Assembly (NCBI GenBank): GCA_029858255.1
Contig: JAOUFJ010000009.1
Span: forward strand, 1-64,000
Direction of reading: 5' to 3'
DNA from: a candidate division WOR-3 bacterium
GTDB lineage: Bacteria > Hydrothermota > Tepidihabitantia > SM23-42
DNA length: 64,000 nucleotides
Under the pieces are notes generated by a model. It was not told the origin of the DNA and did not search any database. It was given only the letters and a program-made list of their open reading frames with translations. The translations under genes and the position numbers were made by a program. This document shows, in pieces, positions 48,311 through 63,541 of the stretch (the first letter of the stretch is position 1; every line of letters starts with the position of its first letter).

Positions 48311-49420
48311 ATGGAGCAGCCAAGAGTCTTGATCATCGACGATGAAAAAGCGATCTGTGAGGCTTGCTCGACCGTTCTGACCCAGGAGCACTATGACGTT
48401 CAGACCAGCCATGATGGTGAAACAGGACTGGAAAAAGTTGACGCCTTCAAACCGGATATCGTTTTTGTCGATTTAAAGATGCCGGGTATGAGCGGCATAG
48501 ATGTTATCCGGGCAATAAAAGAGAAGAATCCTGACATAGTGCCTATCGTAATTACTGGTTATGCATCGATTGATTCGGCTGTCGAATCAATGAAGGCAGG
48601 TGCCTATGACTTTCTACCGAAACCTTTTACACCTGCACAGCTCAGAATTATTGCAGAAAGGGCACTGGATAAGCGACTGGCATCTCTTGAAGCTGAGCGC
48701 CTAAGATGTGAGAAAGAGAAGATGCGTCAGGGATTTATTTCGATGGTGTCGCATGAATTGCGTACACCGCTTGTTGCGGTTATTCAATACCTCGAGGTAC
48801 TTAATAATAGTTTTGCCGGTAGCATTTCCGGTGATCAGGGTAAGATTATCGATCGGATGAAGGTACGTATGACTGAGTTGTTGAGGATGATCGACCGGTG
48901 GTTAAAACTTGCCCGGCTCGAGGAATTAAAGTTGAAAGAAGATTTCGCAGTCTTCGATATCGAGCCAGTGATTCTCGAAGCAATTGACCTTGTCAAGAAT
49001 ATCGCTGCTGAAAAAAATGTATCTGTAGAATACAATGCCTGCTCCTCTGAGGCTGCGATTAAGGGAGACCGTGATTTAATTAAGGAAGTTCTTGTGAATT
49101 TGATTGGCAATGGCGTAAAATACAACCACATCGGGGGAAAGGTGGACGTTTCGATCGGTGAGCAGGGTGTTCACTGGGTTATTAGTATTCGTGATACCGG
49201 TATTGGTATTCCTGCAGGTGAATTGCCTCATGTGATTGAGGAGTTTTACCGTGTCAAGAGAGAAGGGGTGGCGGCGGGTACCGGTATCGGTTTGTCAATT
49301 GTGAAGAAGATACTAGATATTCATGAAGGAAAGTTAGAAATTGCCAGTGTGCTGAATCAAGGAAGCACGTTCAGCGTTTTCTTACCTAAGATAGAACCGT
49401 CTATTAAAGGAGATCGATAA
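48311..49420 (+). CDS. Receiver-histidine kinase hybrid (REC-HisKA-HATPase)
   Basis: A 369-residue cytoplasmic protein. Residues 1-118 are a receiver with Asp54 and Lys104; residues about 138-205 are a HisKA dimerisation domain with phospho-His148 in VSHELRTPL; residues about 245-360 are the ATPase domain with NLIGNGVKYN, RDTGIGIP and GTGIGLSIVKKI. With the receiver at its N-terminus it probably takes phosphate from another kinase and then signals on. It heads the electron-transfer cluster and overlaps the next gene by one base. Confidence 0.93.
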   Translation: MEQPRVLIIDDEKAICEACSTVLTQEHYDVQTSHDGETGLEKVDAFKPDIVFVDLKMPGMSGIDVIRAIKEKNPDIVPIVITGYASIDSAVESMKAGAYDFLPKPFTPAQLRIIAERALDKRLASLEAERLRCEKEKMRQGFISMVSHELRTPLVAVIQYLEVLNNSFAGSISGDQGKIIDRMKVRMTELLRMIDRWLKLARLEELKLKEDFAVFDIEPVILEAIDLVKNIAAEKNVSVEYNACSSEAAIKGDRDLIKEVLVNLIGNGVKYNHIGGKVDVSIGEQGVHWVISIRDTGIGIPAGELPHVIEEFYRVKREGVAAGTGIGLSIVKKILDIHEGKLEIASVLNQGSTFSVFLPKIEPSIKGDR

Positions 49421-50217
49421 TGAAGAATATAAGAATTCTAGTCATCGATAGTGATTTGGAATATGCCGAAAGCAACAGGAAGATTCTAGAAGCAGCGGGT
49501 TATGATGTCATTATCGCACAAACCGGCAAGCAGGGGCTGGAAGCTGCCCGTAAGGAAAATCCAGATCTGGTCATTCTTGATGCAATGCTGCCCGATATAA
49601 ATGGCTTATCTGTCTGTCGTGAATTGAAGGAAAGTGTGAAGCATGAGGTTATGCCGGTTCTTGTTGTAACCGCACTCGGGACAACGGGCGAGAGTTACCT
49701 TGCTAACATGGCTAAAGAGCACAAGGCAGATGGATTCTTTGCGAAGCCTGTCGCTGCAAAGCAGCTGCTTTCCAAGATTGAAGAGCTGTTGAGCAAGACT
49801 ACCCCTGTGCCGAAGGCACCGTCGGCCAAGGCGCGGATTCTGCTCGTTGATGACGACCCCGATTTTCTCGAAGCCACTCGTCATATACTGGTCGCGAATC
49901 GGTACGAAGTCATAACGGCCAAGGATGGGGAGGAGGGTGTTGCTAAGGCCAAATACGAGAGGCCGGATTTGATTGTGCTCGATGTCATAATGCCTGGAAA
50001 GGATGGTTATTCTGTATGCTACGAATTAAGAAAAGTCGAACAGACACGACCGATACCCATCATCATGCTGACAGCGATTGGACAACAATTGTCCAAACCC
50101 GAGTATGCAATGGACATGGCCATTGACCACCTTGCCGACGATTATATCGATAAACCTGTAGATACGCAAACGCTCATTCGTAAGATCGAAAAGCATCTGA
50201 GATTCTACGGGCGATAA
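49420..50217 (+). CDS. Tandem-receiver response regulator (REC-REC)
   Basis: A 265-residue protein of two receiver domains, about 4-125 and 140-262, with phospho-acceptor Asp in VILDAMLPDING and IVLDVIMPGKDGY. There is no DNA-binding or enzymatic output. The linker KTTPVPKAPSAK is proline-rich. It has AAAGGAG before the ATG and is followed by the HdrC-like gene after one base, so phosphosignalling and redox proteins share a transcript. It may bind a redox subunit directly or act as a phosphate sink. Confidence 0.9.
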   Translation: MKNIRILVIDSDLEYAESNRKILEAAGYDVIIAQTGKQGLEAARKENPDLVILDAMLPDINGLSVCRELKESVKHEVMPVLVVTALGTTGESYLANMAKEHKADGFFAKPVAAKQLLSKIEELLSKTTPVPKAPSAKARILLVDDDPDFLEATRHILVANRYEVITAKDGEEGVAKAKYERPDLIVLDVIMPGKDGYSVCYELRKVEQTRPIPIIMLTAIGQQLSKPEYAMDMAIDHLADDYIDKPVDTQTLIRKIEKHLRFYGR

Positions 50218-50218
50218 T

Positions 50219-50716
50219 ATGCCACTTGTTCCGAGATTCAAGTATGAGGTTGCCACCGAGCCGGGCGGTGAGAACATAAAGTTGTGTTTTGCTTGTGGCA
50301 TATGCACAGCCAGTTGTCCGATCCGGGAGGTGGATAACCGGTATAATCCACGTAAAATAATCCGTATGGTCCTTTTGGGGATGAAAGATCGTATATTGAA
50401 AAGCGATTTTATTTGGTTATGCTCAAGCTGCTATGCTTGCAGCGAGCGGTGTCCTCAAGGCGTACGTTTTACTGAAGTGATGAACGCAATAAAGAACCTT
50501 GCGGTAAAGGCGGGTTTTGTTCATCCTGCCTATCTATTACAGGTAGGTATCATAAAGAAATTTGGGCGGCTCTACGAGATTGATTCGTTCGATAACAACA
50601 AAAGGACGTCCCTTGGCCTGCCGGTTGTTGCTAAGGCAAAGATGTTCACTGCCAAGATCAGCGCCTTGACCGGTCTTGATGATATCCTTAACAAGATAAA
50701 GGGCCATGCTGCATAA
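50219..50716 (+). CDS. hdrC: HdrC-like 4Fe-4S protein
   Basis: A 165-residue protein with two 4Fe-4S cluster motifs: CFACGICTASCP (Cys 23, 26, 29, 33) and CSSCYACSERCP (Cys 68, 71, 74, 78), the arrangement of heterodisulfide reductase subunit C. It passes electrons between the HdrA flavin and the HdrB active site. The gene is coupled to the tandem receiver gene; HdrB follows after 96 nt. Confidence 0.92.
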   Translation: MPLVPRFKYEVATEPGGENIKLCFACGICTASCPIREVDNRYNPRKIIRMVLLGMKDRILKSDFIWLCSSCYACSERCPQGVRFTEVMNAIKNLAVKAGFVHPAYLLQVGIIKKFGRLYEIDSFDNNKRTSLGLPVVAKAKMFTAKISALTGLDDILNKIKGHAA

Positions 50717-50812: not shown

Positions 50813-51697
50813 ATGAGATATGCAATTTTTCCCGGTTGCACTGTACTTGGTAGGGGAAGGAACTACGAGATGGCAGCACGGCAGGTTGGAAAATTGATTG
50901 GCATTGAATTCGTTGATCTGGACGACTTCGAATGCTGCGGGTTTCCGGTTAAGTCAATACACCACGACACATTTGTTCTCATGGCGGCCCATAATATACT
51001 TGCTGCTGAAGAACAAAGCTTAAACATATGTACGTTGTGCAGTGCGTGCACGGGTTCGCTCACTGAAGTGAACAAGTATCTGGGCGAACACTTCGATGAG
51101 AAGGCAAAGGTCGTGGCAACGCTTAGGAAGCAAGGCTTTGATTTTCATTTCAGCAAATCCATCGAGGTTAAACATTTTGCCAAGATACTCTATGAGAAAT
51201 TTGACCTGGATAACATAGGAAAAATGATAACGAGGAAGTTATTGGGGCTGAGAATTGCGGTGCATTATGGTTGTCACTACTTGAAACCGGTCGATATCTA
51301 TGATGGTGCCGAAGACCCAGAGAACCCTCATTCAATTGATGACCTCGTACGACTGACCGGAGCAGAATCTGTTGCTTACAGTGAGAAGACAAAATGCTGT
51401 GGCGCCGGAGTTTTGGCGATAAGTGAAGAATTAGCGTACACCATGGCCAGGAGTAAACTTCTGGAATTATCGCAAAATTCCGTTGATGCCTTGGTAGTGG
51501 TGTGTCCATTTTGTAGTATAATGTTTGACGATAATCAGAGGAAGATCGAACAGAAATTTCAGGAGCAATACAACATGCCCGTCTTGTATTATCCGCAGTT
51601 ATTGGGGATAGCTTTAGGAATTGATGAAAAAGCGCTGGGTTTACGCATGAACCGCGTTTCAACAAAGAAGCTTATGGAAAAAATTTCTTATGTCTGA
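50813..51697 (+). CDS. hdrB: HdrB-like CCG-domain protein
   Basis: A 294-residue protein with two cysteine-rich CCG domains: PGCT (residue 9), ECCGFP and CTLCSAC in the first; HYGCHYLKP, KCCGAG and CPFCSIMFD in the second. In heterodisulfide reductases these cysteines bind two non-cubane 4Fe-4S clusters that split a disulfide. The physiological disulfide here is unknown; CoM-S-S-CoB is not expected in a bacterium. AGAAGGAG precedes the ATG. It overlaps the next gene by 8 bp. Confidence 0.92.
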   Translation: MRYAIFPGCTVLGRGRNYEMAARQVGKLIGIEFVDLDDFECCGFPVKSIHHDTFVLMAAHNILAAEEQSLNICTLCSACTGSLTEVNKYLGEHFDEKAKVVATLRKQGFDFHFSKSIEVKHFAKILYEKFDLDNIGKMITRKLLGLRIAVHYGCHYLKPVDIYDGAEDPENPHSIDDLVRLTGAESVAYSEKTKCCGAGVLAISEELAYTMARSKLLELSQNSVDALVVVCPFCSIMFDDNQRKIEQKFQEQYNMPVLYYPQLLGIALGIDEKALGLRMNRVSTKKLMEKISYV

Positions 51698-52571
51698 TAC
51701 AAGCAGGAATAGCGAAGTTGTCGGCTCGGCCATGGTTGTTGGCAGCGGTATCAGCGGTATCCAGGCTGCCCTGGATTTGGCTGATGCTGGATATAAAGTA
51801 TACCTGCTCGAGAAGAGCGCGAGTATCGGTGGTGTGATGGCACAGCTGGACAAGACTTTTCCCACAAATGATTGTTCGATGTGTATTCTTGCTCCAAAAT
51901 TAGTGAGCGTTGCGCGGCATCCGAATATCAAGATAGTAACGAATGCCGAAATTGAGAAAGTGAGCGGTTTGGCGGGTAGTTTCTTTGTGACGGTCAGGAA
52001 AAAACCACGTTTCGTGGATGAAACAAAATGTACCGGCTGTGGTCTTTGTATGGCTAACTGCCCGGTACGGCAGGTGATGCAGATGGACGGCGCAGAGATG
52101 GCGGTGGAATTGAGTCCTGATGACCGAGAGCGTGTCGAGCAAATATTCAAGGGTCATGAAAAGGCTCGCAGCAGCGTTATGTCCGTATTGCACACGATCA
52201 ACGAGAATTACAACTATTTACCACAGGACATATTACGATGTGTGGCTACTGAACTCGATGTGCCTCTGTCCGAAGTCTATAATATAGCTACTTTCTATAA
52301 CAGCTTCAGTCTTGTACCAAAGGGACGTCATACGATAGCAGTATGTCGAGGCACGGCGTGCCATGTCCGTGGTTCAGCGCGAATCCTGGATCGGCTCGAG
52401 CAGGAACTTGGCATCATCGACGGAGAAACGACAGATGATCTGCGATTCACGATCAGGAACGTGCGGTGTATCGGTTGTTGTAGCATTGCACCCGCAGTAC
52501 GCATAGACCGCGAAACCTACGGCAATGTTCGGCCCAACCAAATCTCCAGTATTTTGAGGAAACACAAATAA
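51690..52571 (+). CDS. HdrA N-terminal fragment fused to NuoE
   Basis: A 293-residue fusion. Residues 10-127 match the first part of HdrA: FAD-binding VVGSGISGIQAALDLADAG, GGVMAQLDKTFPTNDCSMC, and a ferredoxin motif CTGCGLCMANCP (Cys 114, 117, 120, 124). HdrA sequence then stops. Residues about 140-293 are a complete NuoE-type thioredoxin-like 2Fe-2S subunit with Cys219, Cys224, Cys260 and Cys264. The missing rest of HdrA appears at residue about 190 of the gene at 55776. It overlaps HdrB by 8 bp and NuoF by one base. Confidence 0.88.
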   Translation: MSDTSRNSEVVGSAMVVGSGISGIQAALDLADAGYKVYLLEKSASIGGVMAQLDKTFPTNDCSMCILAPKLVSVARHPNIKIVTNAEIEKVSGLAGSFFVTVRKKPRFVDETKCTGCGLCMANCPVRQVMQMDGAEMAVELSPDDRERVEQIFKGHEKARSSVMSVLHTINENYNYLPQDILRCVATELDVPLSEVYNIATFYNSFSLVPKGRHTIAVCRGTACHVRGSARILDRLEQELGIIDGETTDDLRFTIRNVRCIGCCSIAPAVRIDRETYGNVRPNQISSILRKHK

Positions 52572-55500
52572 TGCGATTGAATAATTATGATGATTTGGTC
52601 AAAATGAGACAGCAGAAACAAGGTCACTTGTATCCTCGCGACAGGGTACGGATAACCGTGGGTATGGCGACATGTGGTATTGCCACAGGTGCTGGACCGA
52701 TCTTTGATTTCCTGACCATGGCCACAAGAGGCAACGGTAAAAATTTCGTGGTCAATCCGGTCGGGTGCATCGGATTTTGTCAGCAGGAGCCACTGCTTGA
52801 TATTCTGATTCCCGGTAGCCCGAGAGTAACGTTCACCCAGTTGGATCAGAGCCGGACGGAGACTATTTTTTATGATTTAGCAAAGGGCAAACTAGATATG
52901 GGAGCGGCCGCGTGGCGAACTGACCGGGATAATTTGTTAGTTCTGGATGAAGAGAAGATCATGGTCAACGGGGCTTTGGATAATGATATAAAAGCAATCA
53001 CCAGATATGAGGATGTTCCTTTCTTCAGTAAACAGTTGAAGATCGCCTTGCGCAATTGCGGGTATATCAATCCTGAGGATATCCAGGAGTACGTTGCGCG
53101 CGGTGGTTATCATTCGCTGTATAAAGCACTCAGCGCGATGAGCCCGGTCGATGTGATAGAAGAATTGAAAGCATCGGGGTTGCGCGGCAGGGGAGGTGCT
53201 GGTTTTCCAACGGGTAGGAAATGGGAGATATGCCGCAACGCCCCGGGAGAAACTAAATATCTTATATGCAATGCGGACGAAGGTGACCCCGGTGCCTATA
53301 TGGATCGCAGCATTCTTGAGGGCGACCCCCACTCGGTTATTGAAGGTATGTTGATCGGTGCTTATGCTATTGGAGCATCCGAGGGTCATATCTATGTTCG
53401 TGCCGAATACCCATTAGCAATAGAAAGGTTGGCGAGGGCGATAAGTGAAGCTGAGGCTTACGGTTTGTTAGGGCAGAATGTGTTCGGTACGGATTTCGCA
53501 TTCAGACTATCGATTTGTCGAGGCGCCGGTGCATTTGTGTGCGGCGAGGAAACCTCTTTGATCGCTTCGATCGAAGGGAGACCACCAGAGCCCCGGTTGC
53601 GTCCCCCATTTCCTGCCGAATCTGGTTTTCGAGGTAAACCCACTAACATTAACAATGTCGAGACATGGGCTAATGTCCCGGTAATAATCGCGCGCGGCAG
53701 TGAGTGGTTTTCAAAAATAGGCACTGAAAAGAGCAAGGGTACAAAGGTATTCTCGTTGGTTGGTAAAATAAAAAATACCGGTCTAATTGAAGTACCAATG
53801 GGCATAAAGCTCAATGATATTATCGATATAGGCGGGGGGATACTCCAGTCAAGACGGTTCAAGGCAATTCAGACAGGCGGTCCTTCAGGCGGGTGCATAC
53901 CACTTGAGTTGGTTGATCTTCCGGTTGATTACGAACAGTTAGCAGAAGCTGGTTCGATAATGGGTTCAGGTGGTATGATCGTCATGGATGAACGTACATG
54001 TATGGTCGATGTGGCGAAGTATTTCCTTGAATTTCTCAAGGATGAGTCTTGCGGCAAGTGTACTTCTTGCCGTGATGGCATTCTACAGATGTATGAGATT
54101 GTCAAGAGAATCACGGAAGGTAACGGCCAACAAGGTGATGTTGATCTGCTGGAGAATCTCGGCACTGTAATCGAATCCGTTTCCTTGTGCGGATTAGGAA
54201 AGACTGCAGCAAATCCTGTTCTTTCGACACTCCGGTACTTTAGAGAAGAATATGATGCGCATATCTCGAACAAGCGCTGTCCTGCTGTAGTATGCAAGGA
54301 AATCATTTCGTCGCCATGCCAGCATACATGTCCTATTAACACTGAGGCGCAGGTCTACATAACGTACGTTGCACAGCATCAGTTCCATGATGCCCTGAGG
54401 GTCATAGTCAAGGAAAATCCCATGCCCGCTACGGTAAGCCGTATTTGCCATCATCCATGTGAGCGGATAATGTGTCGGGCGAGTGAGCTGGGTGAACCGA
54501 TTGGCATCAGGGCCATCAAGCGTTTCGTCATAGATTGGGCGCGCGACAATAGAATCGAGATGAATGCCACTGAACCTTTGCCAGCCACTGGGAAGAAGGT
54601 GGCGGTGATCGGTTCAGGACCAGCGGGACTTTCAGCTGGTTATTACCTCCGGCTAAAAGGCCACGCAGTTACGGTTTACGAAGCGAAAGATCGACCCGGC
54701 GGCATGTTATGGCTTGGCGTACCTGAGTACAGGTTACCCAGAGCGATCCTTGAATATGATATCGAAAATATCATTAAGGCAGGGATTGATGTAAAGACAA
54801 ATACCGAGGTGGGTCGCGACATCACGCTTGAAGAGATTTTCGGACAAGGGTACGAGGCCGTATTCGTTACTGTGGGTGCTCATGATAGCATGAATATGAA
54901 AATACCCGGAGAAAATCATCCAAATGTTTTGCCGGCGATGAAATTCCTGGACCAGGTACATAGCGGCAAGGATGTCAACTTGGGCAAAAGAGTATGCGTC
55001 ATCGGTGGTGGTAATTCAGCGATCGACGCATCACGTGTAGCCAGACGGTTGGGTTGCGATGTTACCATCTTTTATAGACGTACGAGAGCAGAGATGACCG
55101 CATTCGTCGAGGAGATAAATGGTGCGCTCGAAGAGGGAATTAGACTTGTGCTCCTTGCCGCACCTAAAAGGATTATGGCACAGAATGGCGAGTTACTTCT
55201 CGAAGTGCAGCGAATGCAACTCGGTAGTTTTGACCGGTCTGGCAGGAGACGCCCAATACCAGTTGAGGGGTCTGAATTCGTCGAGGCTTTTGATACGATA
55301 ATATCAGCTATCGGCGAGCGACCAAGGGTCGGGTTTTTGAACGGTTACGTTGAATTGACAGACTGGGGTACGATTAAGGTCGACCCTCGCAACCTAATGA
55401 CGAGTCGTCGAGGAATATTCGCAGGAGGAGATGCGGTCAGGGGCCCGAGCACGGCCATCGAAGCTATCGCTGATGGCAAGAACGCTGCTGAATCCATACA

Positions 55501-55783
55501 TCACTACCTGAATGGACAAGTCTGGCAAGTGGAATACAAGATAACCAGACCGACAGAATATCTTGCACCGGTTGAGATCAGCGATGACGAGATAGGTACA
55601 TTTGAACATGTCGAGATGCCGAGACTGCGTGTTGAGGAAAGAATTGGCAACTTTCGTGAGATTGAGCTCGGTTATTCGGCAGAAATGGCAATGAAGGAGG
55701 CACGTCGTTGTCTGCGATGTGATTTGGATACGGAACAAGGACGGGCATTCATTGAGGCGTTAAGAAAGGAAAAGAATGGTTGA
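52571..55783 (+). CDS. NuoF fused to a GltD/NfnB-like NAD(P)H flavoprotein
   Basis: A 1070-residue fusion. Residues 25-115 hold a thioredoxin-like 2Fe-2S region (Cys35, Cys66, Cys70). Residues about 155-570 are NuoF, with FMN/NADH site GLRGRGGAGFPTG (203-215), ICNADEGDPGAY and 4Fe-4S cysteines at 494, 497, 500 and 540. Residues about 585-1040 resemble the small subunit of glutamate synthase/NfnB: cysteine-rich entry, FAD site VIGSGPAGLSAGYYL (near 678), NAD(P) site VIGGGNSAIDASRVA (near 810) and IFAGGDAVRGPSTAIEA. NADH and NAD(P)H could thus both react with one chain. It overlaps the next gene by 8 bp. Confidence 0.9.
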   Translation: MRLNNYDDLVKMRQQKQGHLYPRDRVRITVGMATCGIATGAGPIFDFLTMATRGNGKNFVVNPVGCIGFCQQEPLLDILIPGSPRVTFTQLDQSRTETIFYDLAKGKLDMGAAAWRTDRDNLLVLDEEKIMVNGALDNDIKAITRYEDVPFFSKQLKIALRNCGYINPEDIQEYVARGGYHSLYKALSAMSPVDVIEELKASGLRGRGGAGFPTGRKWEICRNAPGETKYLICNADEGDPGAYMDRSILEGDPHSVIEGMLIGAYAIGASEGHIYVRAEYPLAIERLARAISEAEAYGLLGQNVFGTDFAFRLSICRGAGAFVCGEETSLIASIEGRPPEPRLRPPFPAESGFRGKPTNINNVETWANVPVIIARGSEWFSKIGTEKSKGTKVFSLVGKIKNTGLIEVPMGIKLNDIIDIGGGILQSRRFKAIQTGGPSGGCIPLELVDLPVDYEQLAEAGSIMGSGGMIVMDERTCMVDVAKYFLEFLKDESCGKCTSCRDGILQMYEIVKRITEGNGQQGDVDLLENLGTVIESVSLCGLGKTAANPVLSTLRYFREEYDAHISNKRCPAVVCKEIISSPCQHTCPINTEAQVYITYVAQHQFHDALRVIVKENPMPATVSRICHHPCERIMCRASELGEPIGIRAIKRFVIDWARDNRIEMNATEPLPATGKKVAVIGSGPAGLSAGYYLRLKGHAVTVYEAKDRPGGMLWLGVPEYRLPRAILEYDIENIIKAGIDVKTNTEVGRDITLEEIFGQGYEAVFVTVGAHDSMNMKIPGENHPNVLPAMKFLDQVHSGKDVNLGKRVCVIGGGNSAIDASRVARRLGCDVTIFYRRTRAEMTAFVEEINGALEEGIRLVLLAAPKRIMAQNGELLLEVQRMQLGSFDRSGRRRPIPVEGSEFVEAFDTIISAIGERPRVGFLNGYVELTDWGTIKVDPRNLMTSRRGIFAGGDAVRGPSTAIEAIADGKNAAESIHHYLNGQVWQVEYKITRPTEYLAPVEISDDEIGTFEHVEMPRLRVEERIGNFREIELGYSAEMAMKEARRCLRCDLDTEQGRAFIEALRKEKNG

Positions 55784-58700
55784 GTTGTTGTTAAACAATC
55801 GTTCTGTGGAGTTTGAACCGGGCAAGACCTTGCTCGAGGTTTGCCGGAAGCATAACATTCCTGTTCCATCCCTATGCTACGATAAAGCCCTTAGTCCATA
55901 CGGTGCTTGCCGGCTGTGTGTCGTGGAAATTAACCGGCAAGGCAAGAAATCTATTCAGGCTTCATGCACTTACCAGGCAGAACCAGGTATCGAAGTCCTA
56001 ACAGATACTCCTGAATTGTTGAACATGCGGCGCACGGTTGTCGAACTGCTGATGGCGCGTGCTCCAGAATCCAAGAAAGTAAAAGAGATCGCATCGGCAC
56101 TGGGTGTCAAGGAGACTCGCTTCGTGAAGCTCAACAAAGACTGTATTCTCTGCGGTCTTTGTGTTCGCATGTGCCGAGAGCGTATGGGGCGTAATGTTTT
56201 GGGTTTTGCCAATCGCGGTGATAACCGGAAAGTAGTCCCCCCGTTCGATATCAACTCGGAAATTTGCATGGCGTGTGGTGCATGCAGGTTCATTTGTCCG
56301 ACTGCCGCAGAAAGGCTAAACAAATTGACGAACAAAATACCTGCGCAAATACCAAATGAATTCGATGAAGGTTTGCGGCCGCGATCGGTTATTTATATTC
56401 CTTTTCCCCAGGCTGTGCCCAACGTAGCAATCGTTGACAAAGACCGGTGTATCCATTTGGTAAGTGATGGTTGTAGGGTATGTGAGGAATATTGTGAGGC
56501 GAAGGCGATTGATTTCCAGCAGAGAGATGAAGTCATGGATTTGAACGTTGGTGCAATAATACTTGCTTGTGGTTTCGATGAATATGATGCAACTTGCAGA
56601 AGCGAATATGGCTACGGCAAATATTCCAATATCGTGACTTCGACGGAATTCGAGAGGATCTTGTCAGCTTCAGGTCCATACGAGGGTCACGTATCGAAAC
56701 CAAGCGATCACGCTGAGCCACGCAGAATAGCTTTCATTCAGTGTGTAGGTTCCAGAGATTCAAAATCAGGCAACAGTTATTGCTCTTCCGTTTGCTGCAC
56801 TTATGCGATAAAGGAAGCAATTATCGCAAAAGAACATGCACGAGGTGAGTTAGATACAACGATATTCTTTATGGATATCAGAACCTTTGGGAAGGGTTTT
56901 GAAGCGTATTACGAACGTGCCAGGAAAGAATACGGCGTGCGTTTTGTGAGGGCAGGGATATCCAGTATTGACGAGGTCCCGGACAGTAAGAATTTGCTTG
57001 TGCACTATGAAAACGAGGACGGCCAAATTATGAAGGAGGAATTCGACCTGGTAGTGCTTTCAGTTGGACTGGTGCCAAAATCTGATGTCGATATGGTAGC
57101 AAGAAAACTAAGGATAGCCCGCAATGAATATGGTTTTTTCAAGAGTTCAGAGTTCATGCCAATGGACACCACCAGAGATGGAATATACGTGTGCGGTACC
57201 GCAGCCGGTCCCAAGGATATACCTGAGTCTGTTACGCAAGCCTCGGGGGCCGCCGCAAAAGTCATGTCCTTGTTATCTTCAGCCCGCAAGAGTCTTACCG
57301 TCATGAAATCCTACCCACCTGAAATGGATGTCAGCGGGCAGGAGGTTCGTATTGGTGTTTTTGTCTGTCACTGTGGCATCAACATTGGTGGTTATGTTGA
57401 TGTCCCCCATGTCGTTGAATACGTCAGATCTCTTCCCAACGTCGTGTATGCGGAGCATAATCTATACACATGTTCTGAGGACACGCAGAGAAAGATTGCC
57501 GAGATCATCAAGGTACAGCATGTCAACCGGGTCGTCGTCGCATCTTGCACGCCGCGAACGCATGAAGCATTGTTCAGGGAGACAATTCGAGAGGCGGGTT
57601 TGAATCCATATCTCTTTGAAATGGCGAACATACGTGACCAATGCAGCTGGATACACATGCAGCAAGCATCGGCCGCCACTGAGAAGGCAAAGGACCTTGT
57701 AAAGATGGCGGTGAGTAAGGCACGTTTGCTGAAATCCTTAAAGCGTGTGGAAATACCGGTGACTCAAAAGGCATTGGTACTCGGCGGCGGTATTACTGGA
57801 ATGATTGCTAGCCTATCGCTTGCTGAACAGGGCTTTGAGGTGAGCCTGGTTGAACGAGATTCTGTGCTTGGTGGCCACATGAGACACATCTATTATACTA
57901 TCGAGGGTAGAAATGTTCAGAACTTTTTGAAACGCTTGACAGATGACGTACGTAACCACCGTCTGATCAATGTGTATACGGATGCAAGGGTCACGGAAAT
58001 AACTGGCTTCGTCGGTAATTATGAGACTGAGATATGTCTTGGCGATGGTAGGAGCGAGAAATTCAAGCATGGAGTCGTGATCGTGGCCACCGGTGCCGCG
58101 GAATACTCGCCTCAAGAATATCTGTACGGGAAGGACAAGAGAATCATCACGCAGCGGGAGTTCGAGGAATTGATGTCGGGAAATGGACCTGCCCAAATTT
58201 TAGAAAATGTTGATTCTGTGGTGATGATCCAATGCGTGGGCTCCCGTGACGATAAGCATCCTTACTGCAGCAGAATTTGTTGTTCTCAAACGGTTAAGAA
58301 CTCTCTAAATTTCTACAAGACAAATCCCGATGCCAACATCTATGTTCTCTACAAAGATATGAGAACATATGGTTTTAGAGAATATTACTACCAAAAGGCC
58401 CGGGAAGCCGGGGTTGTTTTCATAAGGTATGATGATGATCATAAACCAGAGATCAGGATGGATAATGGCAGTATATCAATGTCTGTTATGGAGCCAATTC
58501 TGGGTGAGTCCATCGACATCAAACCGGACCTGGTCGTCTTGGCGAACGGGGTGGAAGCAAGTGGCGACAATATTCAGTTGGCAAAAATGCTGAAGGTTCC
58601 CCTCAATGACGAGGGATTTTTCCTCGAAGCACATGTTAAGCTGAGACCAGTTGACTTCGCGACGGAAGGCGTATTCGTCGCGGGAATGGCACACAATCCC

Positions 58701-59024
58701 AAGTGCATCGACGAATCCATTAGCCAGGCCGAGGCTGCGGCTGCCAGGGCCGCAACAATTATCGCGCATGATACATACTATGCAGAGGCAGCGGTTTCTC
58801 ATGTGAATGACGATCTCTGTGCAGGATGTGGGATTTGCAGCATGCTCTGTCCTTACGAGGCAGTCGAAATTGTGTCTGAGAATGATCGGAGGAAATCGAA
58901 GGTCAACGAAGCCTTGTGTAAAGGATGTGGGACATGCGCTAGCGCCTGTCCGTCTGGAGCCATAGACCAGTATGGTTTCACAAGAGATCAAATCATGGCA
59001 ATGATTGATGCATTAGAGTACTAA
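55776..59024 (+). CDS. NuoG N-terminus fused to HdrA C-terminal part and a second HdrA module
   Basis: A 1082-residue fusion. Residues 1-80 are a NuoG-type 2Fe-2S domain (Cys34, 45, 48, 64); 120-180 hold two 4Fe-4S clusters (Cys 123-133 and 164-174). From about 190, IPNEFDEGLRPRSVIYIPFPQAVPN resumes HdrA just where the fragment in the gene at 51690 stops, continuing with CIHLVSDGCRVCEEYC, QCVGSRD and the flavin C-half to about 510. A second HdrA module (VFVCHCGINIGG, FAD loop GGGITGMIASLSL near 667, QCVGSRDDKHPYC) and two more ferredoxin motifs near 1017 and 1050 follow. Confidence 0.88.
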   Translation: MVELLLNNRSVEFEPGKTLLEVCRKHNIPVPSLCYDKALSPYGACRLCVVEINRQGKKSIQASCTYQAEPGIEVLTDTPELLNMRRTVVELLMARAPESKKVKEIASALGVKETRFVKLNKDCILCGLCVRMCRERMGRNVLGFANRGDNRKVVPPFDINSEICMACGACRFICPTAAERLNKLTNKIPAQIPNEFDEGLRPRSVIYIPFPQAVPNVAIVDKDRCIHLVSDGCRVCEEYCEAKAIDFQQRDEVMDLNVGAIILACGFDEYDATCRSEYGYGKYSNIVTSTEFERILSASGPYEGHVSKPSDHAEPRRIAFIQCVGSRDSKSGNSYCSSVCCTYAIKEAIIAKEHARGELDTTIFFMDIRTFGKGFEAYYERARKEYGVRFVRAGISSIDEVPDSKNLLVHYENEDGQIMKEEFDLVVLSVGLVPKSDVDMVARKLRIARNEYGFFKSSEFMPMDTTRDGIYVCGTAAGPKDIPESVTQASGAAAKVMSLLSSARKSLTVMKSYPPEMDVSGQEVRIGVFVCHCGINIGGYVDVPHVVEYVRSLPNVVYAEHNLYTCSEDTQRKIAEIIKVQHVNRVVVASCTPRTHEALFRETIREAGLNPYLFEMANIRDQCSWIHMQQASAATEKAKDLVKMAVSKARLLKSLKRVEIPVTQKALVLGGGITGMIASLSLAEQGFEVSLVERDSVLGGHMRHIYYTIEGRNVQNFLKRLTDDVRNHRLINVYTDARVTEITGFVGNYETEICLGDGRSEKFKHGVVIVATGAAEYSPQEYLYGKDKRIITQREFEELMSGNGPAQILENVDSVVMIQCVGSRDDKHPYCSRICCSQTVKNSLNFYKTNPDANIYVLYKDMRTYGFREYYYQKAREAGVVFIRYDDDHKPEIRMDNGSISMSVMEPILGESIDIKPDLVVLANGVEASGDNIQLAKMLKVPLNDEGFFLEAHVKLRPVDFATEGVFVAGMAHNPKCIDESISQAEAAAARAATIIAHDTYYAEAAVSHVNDDLCAGCGICSMLCPYEAVEIVSENDRRKSKVNEALCKGCGTCASACPSGAIDQYGFTRDQIMAMIDALEY

Positions 59025-59191: not shown

Positions 59192-60466
59192 GTGCATAAA
59201 ATGTTGAAATTACGCATCCCTCTGAGCACAAAACTAACCCTTGCATTCTCGATGGTTATCATTATCGGCGTTTTTGCTTTGACCATCATTGGAACCCATT
59301 TGATTGCATCGACGATTATCAGGCAGGCCCAGGACAAAGTGGGGCTCGATTTGAACTCGGCGCGTGAGGTCTACAACAGTGAAAGCGATGTCGTCAGGAC
59401 GAAGATAAGATTAACTGCAGAGAGATTTTTCATCAAAGATGCCCTACATATGAATGACATATCGCGCTTACGCCTCGAACTACAGAAAATTAGGGAATTG
59501 GAGGGGCTGGACATACTGACTCTCACGGATATAGATGGAAGGATACTCGTGCGCGCACATAATCCAGCCACTTATGGCGATCGACCCGCCGATGATGTAA
59601 TCGATTGGGTGCTTAGCCGGAAAGAATCGGTCGTTTCCACAGTGATCGTTTCGGAATCCGAACTAGCAAAAATCGGTGTCGCTTATCTCGAGCGCGCCCG
59701 GATTGCGCTGATCCCTACGCCCAAATCGCGCCCCCTGGAGAAGAGCGTGGAGAGGTCGGGAATGTTCATCAAAGCTGCCGCGCCGGTCTTCGACTACTCG
59801 GATAACCTGATCGGTGTACTTTATGGGGGCAACATGTTGAACCGCGATTACTATATCGTTGACAAGGTAAAGAACACTGTTTATCTCGGCGAGATGTACA
59901 AGGGTAGGGAGATTGGTACTGCCACGATTTTTCTTGATGACGCACGGATTTCGACCAATGTTATGAATACGGATGGCGAACGGGCAATAGGTACGCGTGT
60001 CTCCAGCGAGGTTTACGAGCAAGTGGTAATCAGAGGCGATCCCTGGATAGGGCGCGCATTCGTTGTTAATGCATGGTATATGACTGCCTATGAACCGATA
60101 AGGAATATCAAGGGGCAAATCATCGGCATGCTTTACGTAGGAATGCTTGAGGCGCCATATGTCGACTTGCGTAACCGTGTTGTCATAATTTTCCTGGCGA
60201 TTGCCGTTGCCAGTGTTATTTTGCTATCCGTCATCGCTTACTTCACAACGACGCGGATATCGCGTCCGATAAAGGCCCTTCGCAATGCTACAAAGAAAGT
60301 GGCCGATGGAGATCTAAAATATCGATTACAGATAGAATCACGTGATGAGATCGGTGAGCTGTCCGAATCATTCAATCGAATGACAGCCGAACTTCAGAAG
60401 GCAACCGACAATTATCATGTCCTGACACGCACACTGGAGGAAAAAGTAAAGGAAAAGACAGAATAA
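59192..60466 (+). CDS. Membrane sensor part of a histidine kinase (Cache-HAMP), ending at an in-frame TAA
   Basis: 424 residues: TM helix about 15-37, an extracytoplasmic Cache-type sensor (about 40-328), TM helix about 330-352 and a HAMP domain (TTTRISRPIKALRNATKKVADGDL onward) then a coiled linker ending KVKEKTE. The next codon is TAA (60464-60466), after which the same frame continues LRATQDFLIQSEKLASLGKLAAG, the normal sequence of such kinases. The kinase core is therefore separated from its sensor by a single stop codon. Start: GTG at 59192, 4 nt after the -10 box; an ATG three codons on is the alternative. Confidence 0.85.
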   Translation: MHKMLKLRIPLSTKLTLAFSMVIIIGVFALTIIGTHLIASTIIRQAQDKVGLDLNSAREVYNSESDVVRTKIRLTAERFFIKDALHMNDISRLRLELQKIRELEGLDILTLTDIDGRILVRAHNPATYGDRPADDVIDWVLSRKESVVSTVIVSESELAKIGVAYLERARIALIPTPKSRPLEKSVERSGMFIKAAAPVFDYSDNLIGVLYGGNMLNRDYYIVDKVKNTVYLGEMYKGREIGTATIFLDDARISTNVMNTDGERAIGTRVSSEVYEQVVIRGDPWIGRAFVVNAWYMTAYEPIRNIKGQIIGMLYVGMLEAPYVDLRNRVVIIFLAIAVASVILLSVIAYFTTTRISRPIKALRNATKKVADGDLKYRLQIESRDEIGELSESFNRMTAELQKATDNYHVLTRTLEEKVKEKTE

Positions 60467-60505
60467 CTGAGAGCGACACAGGATTTCCTGATCCAGTCGG
60501 AAAAA

Positions 60506-61210
60506 TTGGCTTCCCTGGGAAAGCTCGCTGCCGGGATTGCACATGAGATAAATAATCCGCTCACATCGATCTTGATCAATAGTCATCTGTTGCTTGAGAA
60601 AATCGAGAGCAGTAGTCGGTCGGCCAGTAATTTACGGCTCATCATTGATGAAACAACGAGATGCAGTGCAATAGTAAAAGGACTGCTTGAGTTTGCTAGA
60701 CAGACACCGCCAGAAAAGACAATGGTCAGTATAAACATGGTAATAGACAGTACGCTTCTGATCATGGATACACAGGCATTGGTTCATAATGTCAAGGTGA
60801 AGAAGAAATTAGATGACAATCTGCCACAGGTCATGGTCGATGTGAATAAGATCAAGCAGGTTTTTGCCAATATCATATTGAATGCTTTGGAGTCAATGCC
60901 GGAAGGTGGAGTGTTGGAGATCACCTCGTATGTTTCGGCAGATGACGAGTATGTCAATATCAAATTCAAAGACAGTGGACGCGGGATATCGAAGGATGAT
61001 TTGAAGAAGATTTTTGACCCCTTCTTCACAACAAAAGGGACCAAAGGTACTGGTTTGGGCCTTTCAATAAGTTATGGCATCATTCAACAGCACAATGGCG
61101 CCATAGACGTAGATAGCGAAGTCGGGGAAGGGACGACGATGACCATTCGCCTTCCCCTTAATCCAATAAACAGAGATAAAAAGGAGGAAAGACGTGACAG
61201 AGAAGTTTAA
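60506..61210 (+). CDS. Histidine kinase core (HisKA-HATPase), continuation of the sensor gene
   Basis: The coding sense resumes right after the TAA at 60464-60466 in the same frame (60506 minus 59192 is 1314, divisible by 3). 234 residues hold the phospho-His in AAGIAHEINNPLTSILIN, the N box ANIILNALESMPEGG, the G1 box DSGRGI, the F box DPFFTTK and GTGLGLSISYGI. The TTG at 60506 has no ribosome site, so separate translation is doubtful; readthrough, reinitiation at the CTG after the stop, gene decay or a base-call error are all possible. It overlaps the response regulator by 17 bp. Confidence 0.8.
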   Translation: MASLGKLAAGIAHEINNPLTSILINSHLLLEKIESSSRSASNLRLIIDETTRCSAIVKGLLEFARQTPPEKTMVSINMVIDSTLLIMDTQALVHNVKVKKKLDDNLPQVMVDVNKIKQVFANIILNALESMPEGGVLEITSYVSADDEYVNIKFKDSGRGISKDDLKKIFDPFFTTKGTKGTGLGLSISYGIIQQHNGAIDVDSEVGEGTTMTIRLPLNPINRDKKEERRDREV

Positions 61211-61970
61211 GATCTTGGTGGTTGATGATGAATTACCAGTTTGCAAGAGTATTGCTAGCGCACTGATTAGCGAGGAATATCTGGTCGATACCGCACTCAG
61301 CGGAGAAGAAGCACTGGAAATGCAGGAGAAGAAGCACTACGATGCAATAATCATAGATTTGATGATGCCGGGAATTAGTGGAATGGAACTTCTTAAGAGA
61401 GTCAAGAAGAACCGACCTGATACAATGATGATCATGATTACCGGATATCCTTCAATTCGCACTGCAGTAGAGTCGATAAAAATCGGTGCCTTTGACTATA
61501 TACCGAAGCCCTTTACGCCGAATGAAATCCGCAGTATGATTTCGAGAGCCTTAGTTAGAAAACGAGTCATCCAGAAGAAGGTCGAAGAATCAAGATTCCT
61601 TGAAGATATGCCCGTGCCCGAAGGTTTGTACACTATCCCTGACAATTCATGGCTAAAAATAGAGGACGACGGCAGTGTTTTAGTTGGTGTCCATCACAAT
61701 TTTTTGATTACTATTACAAAGATAGCGACGATAGAGTTTCCAAAAATCAATGAAACAAGATACCAGGGTGAGACCTGCGTAAGGATCATGGAGTCGAACG
61801 ACCGCATTCATAAACTCTGGACTCCCGTGACCGGCAAAGTAACCGCGATCAACAAGAGGGTGCAGGATGATTATGCAGTGCTCTACAAAGATCCATATGT
61901 CACGGGTTGGCTGGTTCAGATGATGCCCACCAATCTTGAAATCGATTTGAAGAACCTTGTAGTGACCTGA
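61194..61970 (+). CDS. Response regulator with a GcvH/lipoyl-like output domain lacking the lipoyl lysine
   Basis: 258 residues. The receiver (1-120) has Asp55 and Lys105. After a helical linker, residues about 144-250 follow the H-protein of the glycine cleavage system: LYTIPDNSWLKIEDDGSVLVGV, KIATIEFPKI, WTPVTGKVTAINKRV and DPYVTGWLVQM. Where H-protein has ESVKA with the lipoylated lysine, this has ESNDR (residues 200-204), so it cannot be lipoylated there. The GTG start has AAGGAGG upstream, inside the kinase gene. It closes the Hdr cluster, and a regulatory link to redox flow is likely. Confidence 0.87.
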   Translation: MTEKFKILVVDDELPVCKSIASALISEEYLVDTALSGEEALEMQEKKHYDAIIIDLMMPGISGMELLKRVKKNRPDTMMIMITGYPSIRTAVESIKIGAFDYIPKPFTPNEIRSMISRALVRKRVIQKKVEESRFLEDMPVPEGLYTIPDNSWLKIEDDGSVLVGVHHNFLITITKIATIEFPKINETRYQGETCVRIMESNDRIHKLWTPVTGKVTAINKRVQDDYAVLYKDPYVTGWLVQMMPTNLEIDLKNLVVT

Positions 61971-62081: not shown

Positions 62082-62744
62082 ATGATCTTGATGTACGGTG
62101 ACAAGACGATTGATCTGAAACCAAGCAAGATCATGGCGGTGGCGAGAAATTATAAGGCTCATGCTGACGAAATGGGTGCAGAATTGCCGAGTGAACCGAA
62201 ATTTTTTCTGAAGCCACCATCAGCATTACTTGCCGATAAGGGGCAGGTAATTCTTCCTAAATCATGTTCACGTGTAGACTATGAAGTTGAGCTGGCTGTC
62301 ATCATTGGTTCGAGGGTCAAAAATGTGACGTCTGATAATGTGACCGGGATACTTCTGGGTTACACGGTACTCGTTGATATTACGGCACGCGATGTTCAGG
62401 CTACTGCAAAAAAACAAGGGATGCCGTGGACGATCGCCAAAGGTTATGATACTTTTGCGCCTATTGGTCCGCACATTGTCCCCGCAAAGAAAATAGACCC
62501 ATCGGATTTAGATGTATGGCTCAAAGTAAATGGCGAGATAAAACAACAGGGTAATACAAATTTGATGATATTCTCGGTCTGCGAACTCGTCTCATTTATT
62601 TCAAAGGTCATGACCCTTGAACCAATGGACGTGATCGCCACCGGTACTCCGTCCGGGGTCGGTCCGATGGAGGATGGTGATGTGATCGAAGCGGGGATTG
62701 AAGGAATCGGCACATTGACGTTTACGGCAGCTCGCGGGCATTGA
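62082..62744 (+). CDS. Fumarylacetoacetate hydrolase family protein
   Basis: 220 residues of the FAH fold: IMAVARNYKAHADEMG, FFLKPPSALL, DYEVELAVIIG (metal-binding Glu pair), TARDVQATAKKQGMPWTIAKGYDTFAPIGP and GTPSGVGPM. Members hydrolyse or decarboxylate keto-acids such as acylpyruvates and oxaloacetate with Mg or Mn. The chosen ATG at 62082 has GGGGGG 4 nt upstream; the longer frame from a TTG at 62064 is less likely. The next gene follows closely or overlaps. Confidence 0.92.
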   Translation: MILMYGDKTIDLKPSKIMAVARNYKAHADEMGAELPSEPKFFLKPPSALLADKGQVILPKSCSRVDYEVELAVIIGSRVKNVTSDNVTGILLGYTVLVDITARDVQATAKKQGMPWTIAKGYDTFAPIGPHIVPAKKIDPSDLDVWLKVNGEIKQQGNTNLMIFSVCELVSFISKVMTLEPMDVIATGTPSGVGPMEDGDVIEAGIEGIGTLTFTAARGH

Positions 62745-62761
62745 ATCGCTCGTGCATATCC

Positions 62762-63541
62762 ATGAGAAACCAAGGTAACAACAACCGTACACCAATCCTG
62801 ATGTTGGATTGGGGTATTGAAGGGATGCGCTACGCTCTACAGAACAGCGATATTACTGTTGTCGTGGATACGCTCCGTTTTAGCACCGCGGTCGTAACGG
62901 CAATTGCCAATGGGTTTACGATATATCCCATCGGGGATCGTAAATCAGGGGAGGACCTGGCGGCATCGATCGGTGCCAATATCGCTGGCAAACCTGGAAT
63001 GGCGAAATATACGATCTCGCCGCATAGTTACTTAAATTCCGATCGTGAGGAGAATAAAAAGGTCGTTTTGTTCTCGCCCAACGGTGCTGCCTGTTCAGCT
63101 CTTGTGGGCAGAGGTCGTAACGCCTATGTCGGCTGCTTGTTGAATGCGAGAAAAGTTGGTGAATATGTTACGATGTTAGCCCGAAGGCGGCGGGTTAATG
63201 TGACAGTGATCGCGGCCGGTGAACAACGTGCTATCGATAACGGGGAAAGGATAGTCTATGAAGAAAAGGCTGCCTATCCTGTATTCGCGATCGAGGACTA
63301 TCTCGCCAGTGGCGCAATAATGAGCTTTTCAGATTTAGAAAAGAGCGCTGAGGCGCAAGTCTGTGAGCTGGCCTTTGGTGGTGCAAAAGAAAATATTGAA
63401 GATTTACTGCTCGACAGCTTCAGCGGTAAATACCTTGTGCAGCATAACCTCCGGGATGATGTGGAGCACGCTGCCCGCTTGAACCTATATGACGTGATCC
63501 CCCGCATCAAAGATGGGAATATAACGGGAATAAGGCCTTGA
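62762..63541 (+). CDS. 2-phosphosulfolactate phosphatase-like (ComB family) protein
   Basis: About 259 residues with ComB-family features: VVVDTLRFSTAVVTAIANG (where the family has VxIDVLRATT), FSPNGAACSALVG and VIAAGEQRA. In methanogens ComB makes sulfolactate for coenzyme M; bacterial homologues are common and their substrates mostly untested, so coenzyme M synthesis should not be assumed even though Hdr genes are close. The start is unsure: the frame opens at a TTG overlapping the FAH stop (62741), and the first ATG, used here, lacks a clear ribosome site. Confidence 0.82.
   Translation: MRNQGNNNRTPILMLDWGIEGMRYALQNSDITVVVDTLRFSTAVVTAIANGFTIYPIGDRKSGEDLAASIGANIAGKPGMAKYTISPHSYLNSDREENKKVVLFSPNGAACSALVGRGRNAYVGCLLNARKVGEYVTMLARRRRVNVTVIAAGEQRAIDNGERIVYEEKAAYPVFAIEDYLASGAIMSFSDLEKSAEAQVCELAFGGAKENIEDLLLDSFSGKYLVQHNLRDDVEHAARLNLYDVIPRIKDGNITGIRP

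Follow-up and report, generated by a model that had tools for sequence, protein, structure and literature searches.

A response regulator with a GcvH-like output domain lacking the lipoyl lysine, encoded beside an Hdr-type gene cluster of a WOR-3 bacterium

The REC-H protein and its gene cluster

The window analysed here, a stretch of 64,000 nucleotides from a candidate division WOR-3 bacterium, carries on the forward strand an open reading frame at 61194–61970, which starts with GTG and encodes a protein of 258 amino acids with a receiver and a GcvH-like domain (REC-H). The receiver domain comprises residues 7–116 (61212–61541, Pfam E 4.9e-29). Its residues D11, D12, D55 (61356–61358), T83 and K105 are intact and are invariant in 12 and 17 homologues in two alignments. 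Judged by sequence, the domain thus has the acidic pair, the phospho-acceptor Asp, the Thr/Ser and the Lys of a phospho-accepting response regulator. Residues 146–255 (61629–61958) match the GCV_H profile (PF01597) with E 3.1e-15 and 56.6 bits at a cut-off of 22.2, and match PDB GcvH chains by sequence as well as by fold. Response_reg and GCV_H are the only Pfam families passing their cut-offs in REC-H, and neither a helix-turn-helix nor another DNA-binding output domain was detected among the Pfam matches.

The initial annotation had described this gene as a response regulator with a degenerate GcvH-like output domain and had proposed a structural comparison with GcvH, in which an unrelated fold would speak against the assignment. 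An AlphaFold2 model (mean pLDDT 91.0, pTM 0.86) gave E. coli GcvH (3a8i_E) as the top Foldseek match, with a TM score of 0.83 by target and an rmsd of 1.8, while the N-terminal half of the model was matched by receivers. Pfam and fold comparison therefore agree with the annotation. Because the VIA-align matches of the model are almost all receivers, the H domain is assigned from the Foldseek result and from sequence comparison; by profile and fold the domain belongs to the GcvH fold family (PF01597).

Fold, length, structural glycines and prolines and the DPYxxGW segment are shared with GcvH. REC-H differs from GcvH in its fusion to a receiver, in the separate position of its domain in the tree described below and in a stretch H-[KR]-L-W, which is conserved after the loop in the REC-H subtype of the window. 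A further difference is the lipoyl loop: in the alignment to PDB H proteins ESNDR (E200–R204, 61791–61805) stands opposite ESVKA and D203 (61800–61802) replaces the lipoyl lysine, as the initial annotation had noticed. With Asp instead of lysine in this loop, REC-H lacks the feature by which a functional lipoyl carrier of the GcvH type would be recognised. The genuine GcvH of the same genome, with gcvT and gcvP around it, reads EAVKA at the loop. The H-like domain of REC-H contains a single cysteine (Cys195).

The genes upstream of REC-H lie on one strand and mostly overlap or almost abut. The run begins with a REC-HisKA-HATPase hybrid kinase (48311–49420, +, assigned by Pfam), orthologues of which are located immediately upstream of Hdr modules in other families of WOR-3, and a double receiver (REC-REC, 49420–50217, +, assigned by Pfam and synteny). 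These are followed, all on the forward strand, by genes for an HdrC-like 4Fe-4S protein (50219–50716), which is homologous to the C-terminal part of the REC-H-HdrC fusions described below, an HdrB-like protein with two CCG domains (50813–51697), an N-terminal piece of HdrA fused to a NuoE-like domain (51690–52571), a NuoF-like protein fused to a GltD-like flavoprotein (52571–55783) and a NuoG-type ferredoxin part fused to an HdrA2-like flavoprotein (55776–59024). The partner sensor kinase of REC-H (sCache-HAMP-HisKA-HATPase, 59192–61210, +) was recognised by Pfam, read-through and homologues and overlaps REC-H by 17 bases. Its reading frame is interrupted by one in-frame TAA (60464–60466) at a position where intact homologues in two genomes of the same genus carry glutamate or aspartate; this may be either a real loss or an assembly error. 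No Pfam DNA-binding domain occurs in the two-component proteins of the cluster, which, together with the domain content of REC-H, agrees with the earlier suggestion of an output acting in place of DNA binding. At 62741–63541 the window contains an open reading frame matching 2-phosphosulfolactate phosphatase (PF04029), which follows an FAA-hydrolase gene and is kept beside REC-H within the genus.

An Hdr-like cluster thus does adjoin REC-H as annotated, but the analogy to sHdr sulfur oxidation that had been drawn from it does not hold in detail. The lipoate-binding protein LbpA of the sHdr system resembles REC-H in being GcvH-like and in its genetic linkage to genes of the Hdr type. In LbpA, however, the lysine is strictly conserved and usually accompanied by two conserved Cys residues near the N- and C-terminus (Cao et al. 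2018, PMC6067878), whereas REC-H has Asp at the lysine position and one Cys. The Hdr cluster is also of another type: sHdr loci are laid out as hdrC1B1A-hyp-hdrC2B2 (PMC6067878), with lbpA and an LplA-like ligase, whereas the window combines HdrC, HdrB and HdrA with NuoE-, NuoF- and GltD-like parts and a NuoG piece fused to HdrA2. HdrC, HdrB, HdrA2 and NuoE/NuoF-like parts within one cluster are likewise found in the HdrABC-Flox/NuoEF type, in which HdrABC is combined with NADH-oxidising modules. Unlike in that type, the block of the window is bracketed by two-component genes, and in three genomes a receiver and an H-like domain are joined to HdrC.

Distribution and phylogeny of the REC-H family

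At least about 90 proteins belong to the REC-H fusion family. Full-length members are present in five of seven relatives of the same genus and in further families of the WOR-3 phylum, and beyond it in Cloacimonadota, Zixibacteria, Ignavibacteria, Bacteroidota, the phylum of a deltaproteobacterial MAG and a 'Heimdallarchaeota' MAG. The two contigs of the latter (L032, L256) are short, carry REC-H with a typical bacterial-type kinase and are possibly mis-binned bacterial DNA. Across phyla a cognate histidine kinase adjoins or overlaps REC-H, as in the window. The kinases paired with REC-H in Zixibacteria (L234:7898-9715 cluster) begin with a part of about 130 residues that contains a GGGxGS motif and has no Pfam match; it looks Rossmann-like by eye and could be a dinucleotide sensor.

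The lipoyl position is not conserved within the family and is occupied by L, G, K, N, M, D, E, R and other residues. Lysine was found in 12 of about 94 scored proteins (about 1 in 8) and never within ESxKA, although, with the position picked by loop pattern, a small number of rows may be shifted by one residue. A tree of 106 H domains, which is to be read with caution since it was built on few columns, unites cytoplasmic REC-H and the triple fusions described below in one supported group (95/88) and places GcvH separately (98/93). Most membrane-anchored REC-H rows are found elsewhere in this tree, beside membrane-anchored H-like proteins, and according to this topology the fusion of a receiver to an H-like domain seems to have arisen at least twice. 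The estimation of dN/dS within the genus carries little weight: only the pair G002/G004 gave a value (omega about 0.15 for the H domain), the other pairs being mostly saturated at synonymous sites.

Several groups of H-like proteins occur besides REC-H. Membrane-anchored H-like proteins without the lysine adjoin ferredoxin-NrfD genes in Bacteroidota and relatives (L253:1125-2529, L253:11983-12699, L243:2254-2922, L286). Others have a cysteine-rich N-terminal part without a Pfam match (L230:3-698, L280, L253:12668-13549, L307_13, L297_6); the lysine is missing in those examined, and several are encoded near Hdr or NrfD-type genes. A separate group retains the lysine in a loop reading [EQ]SxKWVG (L230:8569-8994, L002, L036, L040, L043, L059), again with several members near Hdr genes. 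The representative in the genome of the window (G000:C12:47564) adjoins genes for a FAD-oxidase/CCG protein and LarA-like genes.

REC-H-HdrC fusions and redox-gene neighbourhoods

In three genomes from two phyla, receiver, H-like domain and HdrC form a single protein of 440–450 amino acids: in G072 and G074, which belong to WOR-3, and in G667 from the phylum of the deltaproteobacterial MAG, where the gene is located on a 3.4-Mb contig. The next gene encodes HdrB in all three genomes. It is followed by a full HdrA-like flavoprotein in G072 and G667, and the contig of G074 stops in a short HdrA-like fragment. REC-H of the window shares 40–46% identity with the front part of these triple fusions over its full or nearly full length, and the HdrC-like protein of the window shares 56–66% identity with their back part over nearly its full length. 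The triple fusion is preceded by another REC-H gene in G667, and in G074 by a gene truncated at the contig edge, of which the H-like end remains. No further triple fusion was detected among 125 genomes of the phylum of the Cloacimonadota MAG; around G667 the search covered an order and class that contain just two genomes. By the gene-fusion argument, the separate REC-H and HdrC proteins are probably in contact.

Genes for HdrA/B/C, MvhD, NrfD or its ferredoxin partner are present at 22 of 43 REC-H loci, compared to 1 of 40 windows of 20 kb placed arbitrarily in such genomes, the REC-H loci not being independent since many of the 22 represent one Bacteroidota operon type. Among 52 loci collected through plain GcvH-like proteins, 2 carry genes of this set, and in both cases the H-like protein belongs to the KWVG type. 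Many of the positive loci are from Bacteroidota or related and encode periplasmic ferredoxin-NrfD, mostly together with a class III-type cytochrome, a kinase and paired REC-H proteins. A control with 37 other response regulators of the same genomes, of which 9 are located near redox genes, was replaced by the 40 arbitrary windows, because its members were picked as the most similar receivers and several turned out to be parts of this very system, with REC-HK before Hdr or with H-like or REC-H genes in the vicinity.

At the remaining 21 of the 43 loci, none of these redox genes appears in the sequence that was read, some of the contigs being short. One set of them adjoins a HEAT/P-loop/WD40 protein and another a PAS-PAS kinase. 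The former, of about 1040 amino acids (L033:5366-8530 and orthologues), is encoded directly 3′ of REC-H in Zixibacteria, Cloacimonadota, WOR-3 and the 'Heimdallarchaeota' MAG. It had been considered whether REC-H is always accompanied by Hdr or Nuo genes, which is not the case, and homologues keeping the lysine and scattered without redox neighbours had been named as counter-evidence to a redox function. The lysine is retained in about 1 in 8 proteins, as given above; lack of visible redox neighbours was indeed observed, at about half of the loci.

Within the genus, an orthologue of the HdrB gene of the window was found in G000, the genome of the window, and G005 alone, and in both the Hdr block is bracketed by two-component genes. 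A related arrangement in G009 is more extensive and includes two HdrA, two MvhD and HdrC. The other four genomes with REC-H (G001–G004) keep it without this HdrB orthologue, though other Hdr modules are present; in G001–G003 the two-component genes remain but the Hdr block is missing, and G004 has REC-H together with at least the end of the kinase gene. In G018, G023, G026 and G082 orthologues of the hybrid kinase and of the double receiver lie directly upstream of HdrC and HdrB (HdrCB(A)). This synteny suggests that the Hdr module is widely subject to two-component control in WOR-3, with REC-H as one part of it.

Possible function of REC-H at electron-transfer complexes

We favour, with moderate confidence, the view that REC-H is a response regulator whose cofactor-less GcvH-like domain serves as a docking module on an electron-transfer complex, with the side of HdrC as the most likely contact, and thereby tunes electron flow. 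This view is based on the natural fusions, the grouping of cytoplasmic REC-H with these fusions apart from GcvH, the redox enrichment, the synteny with kinase genes, the lack of a DNA-binding domain and the unconserved lysine. The Cache-type membrane sensor kinase encoded next to REC-H would phosphorylate the receiver at D55. The H-like domain would then attach to an iron-sulfur/flavin complex of electron transfer, or change the way in which it is bound there, and electron flow would be adjusted post-translationally. The most likely target would be the side of HdrC in the HdrCBA-NuoEF-type complex encoded by the same gene run. We infer that binding by REC-H depends on phosphorylation. In other lineages related REC-H proteins may act likewise on NrfD/ferredoxin/cytochrome complexes. 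Docking on a redox complex, as put forward by the initial annotation, is thus in line with the triple fusions and with the enrichment beside Hdr and NrfD-type genes, but the loci lacking a visible redox partner count against it, as do the four genomes of the genus that have REC-H without the HdrB orthologue, the small number of triple fusions and the stop codon in the kinase gene of the window. The alternative in the initial annotation, docking on a lipoyl-dependent enzyme, received no support from our analysis. A more far-reaching version remains tentative and appears to us somewhat less probable than its contrary: two-component phosphorylation would directly gate a HdrABC/NuoEF-type, possibly electron-bifurcating complex, with REC-H as a regulatory subunit that is detachable in the window and built-in in the fusions, and a parallel membrane-anchored version would serve NrfD-type respiratory complexes.

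The same HdrC fusions and synteny would also fit an H-like domain that is an assembly or anchoring scaffold, by which two-component proteins held on the redox complex sense electron flow, with redox state as input and signal as output. The hybrid kinase and the double receiver of the cluster could pass such a signal on, and anchoring in the membrane next to NrfD complexes is seen in another REC-H lineage, which seems to be independent. Nevertheless, a transcription factor or other protein that would evidently serve as the final output is missing from the cluster of the window, and receivers of two-component systems usually act as the controlled and not as the sensing part, so we regard this explanation as unlikely. 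Less probable again is an ordinary signalling adaptor that binds an unrelated partner, e.g. the HEAT/P-loop/WD40 protein, the vicinity of Hdr genes in WOR-3 being incidental. That protein does lie beside REC-H at eight loci, and the main Zixibacteria type mostly lacks Hdr genes nearby, but REC-H-HdrC fusions in two phyla and the redox enrichment over arbitrary windows would be left unexplained.

At nearly the same low level, and marginally below it, we place a phosphorylation-gated decoy, which would compete for a docking site with a lysine-bearing, Hdr-associated H-like carrier of lipoyl or sulfur (QSxKWVGK type). A protein of this type directly adjoins the REC-H-HdrC fusion in G072, another is present in the genome of the window beside the FAD-oxidase/CCG protein, and the type occurs near Hdr genes in a methanosarcinal and an actinomycetal MAG; furthermore, its rows are on the same side as REC-H in the H-domain tree. 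However, REC-H and the putative carrier, whose lipoylation is hypothetical, are neighbours at only one of the loci examined.

Docking on the HdrC side, the reading we prefer, would place REC-H among the response regulators with a protein-docking output. RssB-like regulators similarly combine a receiver with a C-terminal domain that does not bind DNA, whereas the output of REC-H is a pseudo-lipoyl carrier, which as an output domain is apparently undescribed. Our search of open-access papers yielded no description of GcvH, PF01597 or a lipoyl domain as the output of a response regulator; for HdrC together with two-component systems the open-access papers described other systems only and no REC-HdrC fusion. 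The architecture REC-GCV_H may already be listed in domain databases. If the preferred reading is true, a sensor kinase exerts its control post-translationally, and not via genes, over energy-conserving enzymes of electron transfer, and many proteins annotated as 'glycine cleavage H protein' but incapable of carrying lipoate gain a role. The natural REC-H-HdrC fusion makes the docking question testable with a single protein. The HdrA-like protein adjoining this fusion in G667 (L249:2054-6793) has 1580 amino acids and continues in frame into PIN and TRAM domains.
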